Below, in pieces: positions 19,006 to 19,774 of a stretch of 21,109 nt of DNA. The notes beneath the pieces were generated by a model that did no database searches, was not told where the DNA came from, and saw nothing but the letters and a program-made list of their open reading frames with translations. The DNA comes from a virus. Each line of letters begins with the position of its first letter. Positions within the stretch are counted from its first letter, which is position 1. Where the stretch lies: the IMG/VR virus record IMGVR_UViG_3300025941_000110, positions 1 through 21,109 of that record; one strand, 5' to 3'. A program made the translations under genes and the position numbers.

Positions 19006-19149
19006 CTATCGCTTAGTTTGTTTCTTTGCTGCTTCGCGCTTAGTCGAATATGCGATTGCAACAGCTTGCTTAACTGGCTTTCCCGCTTTTACTTCGGCTT
19101 TCACGTTACTTTTGAAGGCAGCAGGAGATGTTGATTTCTTGAGCGGCAT
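19006..19149 (-). CDS. 47-aa lysine-rich conserved phage protein
   Basis: The short ORF MPLKKSTSPAAFKSNVKAEV... ends KREAAKKQTKR. It contains 11 Lys and 2 Arg in 47 residues against 2 Glu. The core AGKPVKQAVAIAY is the signature of a tiny basic protein family I recognise from many phages and some bacteria. It has a strong GAAAGGAAAG Shine-Dalgarno site 5 nt from the ATG, directly after the T-run of the terminator. The first gene of the structural transcript, it is probably DNA- or RNA-associated by charge, but no function is established. Confidence 0.8.
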   Translation of the reverse strand: MPLKKSTSPAAFKSNVKAEVKAGKPVKQAVAIAYSTKREAAKKQTKR

Positions 19150-19163
19150 ATCACTTTCCTTTC

Positions 19164-19200
19164 AAAAAAATCCCGCTCTAGCGCATATGTCCAGAGCGGG
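19164..19200 (-). terminator. Strong intrinsic terminator downstream of the tRNA-like region
   Basis: CCCGCTCT (19200-19193) pairs with AGAGCGGG (19179-19172) as a perfect 8-bp, GC-rich stem with a 13-nt loop, followed on the minus strand by ATTTTTTT (19171-19164). It ends transcription coming from the accessory genes and the RNA block, just before the 47-aa gene. Confidence 0.88.
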
Positions 19201-19210
19201 CGAACTAGGA

Positions 19211-19230
19211 GGGTGAAGCAGGGTGAAACA
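19211..19230. repeat. Tandem 10-mer repeat
   Basis: gggtgaagca is followed directly by gggtgaaaca, two 10-nt units differing at one base. It lies between the tRNA-like sequence and the terminator. Confidence 0.75.
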
Positions 19231-19239
19231 AAGGAAACT

Positions 19240-19366
19240 TTCACTCTATGGGATTCGAACCCATGGCAAGAACATATTCCCCTCACAATTTTGAGGTAGA
19301 TGCTACTTCCCTGCACCCTTATATCCAACTTCCCAAGGGAGCCTTCAACCACTCAGCCAAGAGTAA
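19240..19366 (-). tRNA. Atypical Ser-type tRNA or tRNA-like RNA with an enlarged centre
   Basis: The minus strand shows an acceptor of 7 pairs (TTACTCT 19366-19360 with AGAGTGA 19247-19241, one G-U), then TG and a Ser-type D arm GCTGAGTGGTTGAAGGC. A perfect T arm follows, ATGGG-TTCGAAT-CCCAT (19264-19248), with discriminator A and no encoded CCA. Between D and T arms lie 76 nt, about twice the usual length of anticodon plus long variable arm. CCCTT/AAGGG would enclose 14 nt, and further small stems (GTAG-CAT-CTAC; CCTCA-6 nt-TGAGG) are possible. I could not place a normal 7-nt anticodon loop, so I assign no anticodon. It may carry an insertion, be a decayed tRNA, or be a tRNA-like structure. 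Confidence 0.5.
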
Positions 19367-19372
19367 AATCTG

Positions 19373-19426
19373 GCCGGACTTCCACCGGCTTTGTCTGTAT
19401 AGCGGTACTCGCTCTCTTACACGACA
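19373..19426 (-). ncRNA. Two hairpins upstream of the tRNA-like sequence
   Basis: GCCGG-TGGAAGT-CCGGC (19389-19373) is a 5-bp, 7-nt-loop hairpin shaped like a T arm but without its loop consensus. Next to it, TGTC/GACA, TGTA/TACA and AGCG/CGCT (19426-19392) pair in order with small bulges. No ORF or protein signal crosses this stretch. It would form the 5' leader of a transcript running into the tRNA-like sequence. Confidence 0.5.
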
Positions 19427-19443
19427 TTGGCCATCGCTAAGCC

Positions 19444-19472
19444 ATTATAGATCAGAAATGTCTCTGAATCTA
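19444..19472 (-). promoter_or_regulatory. Candidate sigma70-type promoter for the RNA block
   Basis: A perfect TATAAT -10 (19449-19444) with a 17-nt spacer to a partial -35, TAGATT (19472-19467). It lies just after the stop of the 99-aa gene. A transcript would start near 19437 and run through the hairpins and tRNA-like sequence to the terminator at 19164. Confidence 0.45.
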
Positions 19473-19474
19473 TA
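19446..19474 (-). repeat. Hairpin directly after the 99-aa gene
   Basis: ATAGATCAGA (19447-19456) pairs with TCTGA-ATCTAT (19463-19473) with one bulge, plus one flanking pair, around a 6-nt loop. No T-run follows, so it is not a clear terminator. It overlaps the candidate promoter. Confidence 0.6.
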
Positions 19475-19774
19475 TTAGCCTTCAATTTGATCAAGAGTGA
19501 TGATTACTTGCTTGTCTTCGATGGCTCGGGCGATGGCAGCGTTGGCGACAGCAGTTAGTTTTAGGCTCGATGGCCCATTTTCCCATGCGGTAATCAATTC
19601 GTCGTCGTTCATCTTTGTCTTCGGATATTCAGGTTCCGGCTTGATGCGAAGTTCATCATTATCCCAATTAGGTTGACCAAGAACATCCCTCCAATTACCT
19701 GTACTGTTCTTAAATTGGATTTGTTTTCCGTCGGCCCATCGTTTTATTAATTCTGCATGCTTATGTGGTTTCAT
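19475..19774 (-). CDS. Conserved phage protein, 99 aa, unknown role
   Basis: The ATG at 19774 was chosen over an ATG at 19861. It overlaps the stop of the two-helix membrane gene (ATGA) and has a GGAAGAG box at suitable distance. The longer form would lie antisense-free but inside that gene. The N-terminal segment MKPHKHAELIKRWADGKQI, then NWRDVLGQPNW and DELRIKPEPEYPKT, is a recurring pattern in phage accessory proteins: a short helix followed by beta strands ending in a Tyr/Arg-Ile-Lys-Pro motif. The C-terminal half is helical (LKLTAVANAAIARAIEDK). No catalytic residues are evident. It is the last gene before the non-coding RNA block. Confidence 0.72.
   Translation of the reverse strand: MKPHKHAELIKRWADGKQIQFKNSTGNWRDVLGQPNWDNDELRIKPEPEYPKTKMNDDELITAWENGPSSLKLTAVANAAIARAIEDKQVIITLDQIEG

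Follow-up and report, generated by a model that had tools for sequence, protein, structure and literature searches.

The window analysed here, a 21,109-base stretch of a virus record, encodes the head and packaging proteins of a tailed phage (the large and the small terminase, the portal and the major head protein) and contains a non-coding stretch of about 310 nt that an earlier note had read as a dedicated gene for a structured RNA, with a tRNA, a tRNA-like decoy or a regulatory RNA as its possible products. This locus raises two questions: whether the stretch is a transcription unit of its own, and what kind of RNA such a unit would supply to the phage.

Results

A putative RNA transcription unit and its relatives

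Read along the minus strand, to which all features of the unit belong, positions 19164–19449 begin with a TATAAT hexamer and a leader with two short hairpins; the tRNA-like core comes next, then a tandem repeat rich in C, and a strong intrinsic terminator closes the series. The hexamer (19444–19449) is a perfect −10 element accompanied by a weak −35 element. Hairpin 1 of the constant leader, AGCG-AGTAC-CGCT (19401–19413), lies within 19393–19416, and hairpin 2, GCCGG-TGGAAGT-CCGGC, occupies 19373–19389. The tRNA-like core (19240–19366) is 127 nt long with no encoded CCA; it is followed by two near-10-mers, TTTCACCCTG CTTCACCCTC (19209–19228), and by the terminator (19164–19200), an 8-bp G+C-rich stem with a T run (CCCGCTCT/AGAGCGGG then ATTTTTTT). 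Every signal that the earlier note had listed is present: the perfect hexamer, the hairpins, the core with its fully paired T arm and acceptor, the tandem repeat, the terminator and their order on a single strand.

A simple scan for promoters and terminators gave no site at the TATAAT and likewise misses 19164–19200, because the terminator loop is longer than 8 nt; the fold energy of the unit is not above chance (z = −1.1) and is not significant as evidence. The leader GGTGGAA is able to pair with a downstream TTTCACC across the tRNA-like core, a possible precursor stem. A 47-aa basic ORF (MPLKKSTS...; 19006–19149, minus strand) begins directly 3′ of the terminator.

A scan of contigs for 20 bases of the leader yielded six contigs, five of which also carry the terminator (L097, L257, L258, L260 and L261). 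Four of these five (L097, L258, L260 and L261) have an identical −10 region, and L097 has three copies of the tandem repeat. Hairpin 1 is kept in all six contigs, tRNA-free ones included, whereas the conservation of hairpin 2 is biased because it lies within the 20-mer used as query. We judge the unit to be beyond chance because of this recurrence; the promoter-like −10, leader and terminator also keep their order in relatives, with an insert or without one, which supports 19164–19449 as a putative self-contained RNA transcription unit.

What lies between leader and terminator varies: the leader is accompanied by tRNA-Gly in L258 and L260; L097 has a tRNA-like element, the leader and tRNA-Gly; and in L257 and L261 leader and terminator surround an empty slot. 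The sixth contig, L259, carries the tRNA-like element of L097 and L082, one base different, together with the leader in another setting without the terminator. In the contig closest to the window, IMGVR_UViG_3300024181_000002 (98% identity over 8.9 kb of the structural region), what lies between the shared promoter region and terminator is another class-II tRNA-like element, then the leader and then a normal tRNA-Gly(TCC). The slot thus occurs in three states: empty (two phages), filled by a normal tRNA-Gly (three) and, in the window, filled by a class-II tRNA-like RNA. As leader and terminator are kept in all three states, we regard the unit as a constant part with an exchangeable insert; the dedicated gene proposed earlier survives as a self-contained unit but not as a gene for one RNA. 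Small ORFs resembling the 47-aa ORF of the window also lie 3′ of the cassette in L257, L258 and L261.

A constant part that outlasts its inserts could itself be the product, and a regulatory RNA role for it is possible: the leader–terminator unit, with its C-rich tandem and GGA loop, would be a small regulatory RNA and the inserts its passengers. Consistent with this, leader and terminator vary less than the slot and are present in L257 and L261, where no tRNA accompanies them, and the leader occurs without the terminator in L259. Against it, no Rfam regulatory family matches, comparison of the five copies of the constant leader revealed no compensatory pair, and the leader hairpins and terminator would serve a tRNA expression cassette equally well. 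We consider this explanation rather improbable.

Anatomy of the tRNA-like element

The Rfam scan of the whole window gave a sole match, tRNA (RF00005), at 19240–19366, with 30.3 bits against a gathering threshold of 29 (E = 0.0086 for the whole window and all families; 3e-4 for 751 nt). Inspection and scripted pairing resolve most parts of a class-II tRNA of the serine type: the acceptor stem pairs TTACTCT (19360–19366) with AGAGTGA (19241–19247) at 7/7 positions, one of them G-U; the D arm GGCTGAGTGGTTGAAGGC (19341–19358) bears G15 and G18G19, and T8, A14 and the D–T loop bases are in place; and the T arm ATGGG-TTCGAAT-CCCAT (19248–19264) is paired 5/5. The variable arm (19266–19314) has a 7-bp stem, GCAGGGA/TTCTTGC, with an inner hairpin, and is separated from the T arm by a single unpaired C48 (19265), as in tRNA-Ser, with the G15–C48 pair kept. 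One serine feature differs: the element has A73, and G73 is the usual discriminator of bacterial tRNA-Ser. In E. coli, G73 is of moderate importance to tRNA-Ser (PMC9976931).

The anticodon arm is replaced by a remodelled one, CCCTT-(14 nt)-AAGGG (19316–19339), with a loop that is not decodable, and the normal combination of 5-bp stem, 7-nt loop and U33 (17 nt in all) is absent from every register of the middle of the element. An ordinary decoding tRNA, one of the functions first proposed, is disfavoured on this ground, and a tRNA-like mimic fits best among them. The default ARAGORN search of the window found nothing, because the 14-nt anticodon loop hides the element from it; when introns are permitted, the program is forced to call a Thr(tgt) tRNA interrupted by a 46-nt “intron”, a call that we regard as spurious. 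A tmRNA was also considered and rejected, as neither ARAGORN nor Rfam called one. No Rfam family other than tRNA matched at E up to 1, Y RNA included.

Could splicing, or some unusual fold, give back a decoding arm? The intron-containing ARAGORN calls would be in line with this, as would the archaea that dominate the cellular-genome matches listed for the serine pattern (below), which is what archaeal tRNA introns would lead one to expect. However, no register offers the 17-nt arm with its U33, removal of the called intron would take away most of the variable arm, and the head and packaging proteins of the window phage have bacterial-phage relatives (its large terminase is 51% identical to that of Acetobacter phage phiAX1 and 48% to that of a Stenotrophomonas phage). 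We know of no such tRNA splicing among bacterial phages, and find this explanation very unlikely. That the element resembles the bacterial Y RNA YrlA and is bound by a protein of the Ro60 type is scarcely credible: Y RNAs do mimic tRNA, but only tRNA is matched in Rfam at E up to 1, and the element has a 7-bp tRNA-type acceptor and a Ser-type variable arm.

Similar elements in other phages

Neither a nucleotide search among named phages with the RNA unit of the window nor a search of viral contigs with an exact 30-mer (D arm plus anticodon arm) found a match. Viral contigs were then scanned by structure: a Ser-type pattern (degenerate D arm and T arm around an over-long middle) gave 50 stretches, and its Leu-type equivalent at least 120 matches, of which 80 were kept (L262–L341); most of these loci come from metagenomic fragments. 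Only the D arm and the inner T arm are set by the patterns, and their conservation is for that reason not independent evidence; the acceptor stem, the outer T pairs and position 48 were left free and therefore serve as independent tests. The restriction to serine and leucine is not itself a result, because only D arms of these two types were searched. L101, L105, L109, L115, L118, L129, L131 and L134 were set aside as normal tandem tRNAs or suppressor tRNAs.

Among the viral-contig matches listed, 107 distinct elements with 60 different acceptor sequences have no normally placed anticodon arm, and 98/106 have no 5-bp/7-nt/U33 arm anywhere in the middle, in any register. Nearly all of L262–L341 are without a normal anticodon arm. 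The acceptor is paired 7/7 in 89 of the 107 distinct elements, against a mean of 8.5 with shuffled partners and a maximum of 19 in 200 shuffles. At position 48, in the expanded sets of matches listed, 39/43 Ser-type elements carry C and 71/77 Leu-type elements carry T, preferences that fit the G15 of the Ser-type and the A15 of the Leu-type D loop.

The canonical register of the variable helix leaves one unpaired nucleotide before the T stem in tRNA-Ser and two in tRNA-Leu. For the helix nearest the T stem in the matches listed, the Ser-type elements peak at one unpaired nucleotide (7/24; shuffled, 1.9) and the Leu-type at two (15/53; shuffled, 4.1). In many listed Leu-type members the 5′ strand of this helix falls within the anticodon-region hairpin, so that a possible pseudoknot would join the anticodon-region loop and the variable region.

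Named phages searched with the other elements returned mostly normal tRNA-Leu genes and one true match, in Bacteroides phage BS-TP2, where an unannotated Leu-type element fills the gap between two genes. The Leu pattern found none in 399 Pseudomonadota genomes and is therefore not something that ordinary tRNA genes of this bacterial group show. The Ser pattern, run on bacterial and archaeal genomes, gave mostly archaeal sequences among the matches listed; of the six bacterial ones inspected, three proved to be masked sequence and a fourth was a normal tRNA whose end had been mis-joined. No protein family turned up repeatedly next to elements of different types, the only shared neighbours being prophage genes within one subgroup, which suggests that the RNA acts with host factors. 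As judged from sequence, similar putatively non-decoding tRNA look-alikes are carried by many unrelated phages.

Other tRNA-like loci

The Ser-type set includes an L107-type subgroup with its own architecture: in L107 (2956–3580), and likewise in L089, L103, L113, L116, L127 and L138, a Ser-type and a class-I tRNA-like element flank apparently non-coding DNA, roughly 230–450 nt across these loci. The stretch between the two in L107 has no Rfam match at E up to 1, and XRE-like and integrase-like genes lie near many loci of this paired arrangement. The class-I elements (L107 3509–3580, L113 4357–4480, L127 2237–2299 and L116 4611–4671) vary in the anticodon arm, with a 5-nt loop, a ~50-nt expansion or a deletion (63 nt in total); those of L107, L113 and L127 are near-identical outside the middle.

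Ser-type tRNAs with normal arms occur at L109 (9080–9189) and L125, with the anticodon TTA, which would read UAA, and at L115 (3005–3107), with CTA, which would read UAG; they are likely phage suppressor tRNAs. L154 (1860–1990; Streptomyces globisporus) is a Ser-type tRNA-like element with a long anticodon-arm stem, and L211 (5380–5461; Acidobacteria) a Ser-type tRNA whose arm reads the anticodon GTT (Asn). L093 (3644–3769) and L112 (619–720) carry dissimilar tRNA-like elements at the same distance, 8 bp, behind T7-type scaffold genes that are homologous to each other (38.5% identity).

Discussion

Our analysis suggests that the window carries a tRNA-expression cassette whose slot holds a non-decoding, Ser-type class-II tRNA-like RNA, that is, a mimic and most plausibly a decoy; we give this reading an even chance of being right. 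The cassette would comprise its own promoter, the leader hairpins, the exchangeable slot and the terminator. RNase P and 3′ nucleases would trim its transcript, which would receive a CCA tail as a tRNA does; host enzymes that recognise a tRNA by its acceptor, elbow and variable arm and ignore the anticodon would bind, and perhaps charge, the product; and the matured element, unable to enter decoding, would act as a non-translating tRNA mimic. Its most plausible role would be that of a decoy for a host tRNA-directed factor, e.g. a defence nuclease; a synthetase could also be its target.

We infer a matured and possibly chargeable mimic because serine and leucine identities are charged without reading of the anticodon: serine identity resides mainly in the variable arm; tRNA-Leu without anticodon and variable arms is still leucylated given A73 and the D–T contacts; and LeuRS requires the anticodon arm for editing but not for charging (PMC9976931). 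The elements keep most of these charging features; the window copy differs in its discriminator. Against a mimic stand the A73 discriminator, the lack of a protein partner that recurs across element types and the precedent of retron-Eco7 (below), where the phage tRNA needed its anticodon; moreover, the RNA of the window has no homolog that carries compensatory changes.

The same observation bears on decay, by which a former normal tRNA-Ser, with insertions in its anticodon and variable arms, would have fallen out of use. That cassettes with an empty slot survive (L257 and L261), that no close homolog of the window copy was found in named phages or by the 30-mer in viral contigs, and that the fold z-score of the element is low would all accord with decay. 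Yet acceptor (7/7), T arm (5/5), C48 and the Ser-type variable-arm register are intact; a one-nucleotide-different copy of the L097/L082 element stands in another setting in L259; and the pattern is found again in many unrelated phages, where the acceptor stems covary, which decay would not bring about. Decay is, in our view, unlikely.

A device for RNA processing or stability, i.e. a mark for RNase P or 3′ cleavage that requires the acceptor and the T arm and can do without an anticodon, would account for the freedom of the anticodon region, and other elements do lie within 8–45 bp of a head gene: the scaffold gene in L093 and L112, the terminase gene in L121 and the portal gene in L126. However, the window unit ends in a terminator of its own, with no gene for it to punctuate, and the retained Ser/Leu-type register of the variable helix would be left unexplained; we think this explanation improbable.

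Extended beyond the window, the mimic reading becomes a more tentative proposal, to which we give clearly less than an even chance: phages of many lineages may encode Ser- and Leu-type mimics that have lost the anticodon and kept the features read by SerRS or LeuRS, RNase P and the CCA enzyme, and that would be charged or bound but never decode, serving as decoys or aminoacyl donors, with the window as one member. Debate on why phages carry tRNAs has centred on decoding and on replacement of cleaved tRNAs; RNAs with a tRNA body that cannot decode need another reason. Both sets found belong to identities charged without anticodon reading (the only two searched), and aminoacylation is directly testable. 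The elements may be widely unannotated because the default search of a tRNA finder, ARAGORN, misses them. Open PubMed Central papers, preprints aside, held nothing relevant on anticodon-less phage tRNA mimics, and non-decoding look-alikes of this kind appear not to have been described previously.

tRNA mimics that do not decode are known elsewhere, among them the tRNA-like RNAs of the virus MHV68 and the YrlA Y RNAs; these belong to other hosts and differ in architecture, and no such family is matched by Rfam in the window. tmRNA likewise combines a tRNA-like acceptor and T arm with a replaced anticodon, but is Ala-type and much longer. Phage tRNAs with anticodon-loop mutations (PMC10264068) resemble the window element in being altered there, although their changes affect the loops of recognisable decoding tRNAs, whereas in the window the whole arm is remodelled. 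The phage tRNAs known from anti-defence, tRNA-Tyr of T5 and SP15 against retron-Eco7 and of T6 against Septu (PMC11555353, PMC13096335), share with the window element a phage tRNA gene with its own promoter and the acceptor, D and T arms, and possibly a role against tRNA-directed defence. These tRNAs replace cleaved host tRNAs, and they act by decoding rather than as decoys, since tRNA-Tyr needed its anticodon in retron-Eco7 rescue (PMC11555353); the window element has no decodable anticodon arm. Compared with bacterial class-II tRNA-Ser and tRNA-Leu, the window element lacks the 7-nt anticodon loop and has a variable arm of ~50 nt with an inner hairpin, but it shares with them the D-loop type, the Levitt pair, the variable-arm register and the acceptor and T arms.
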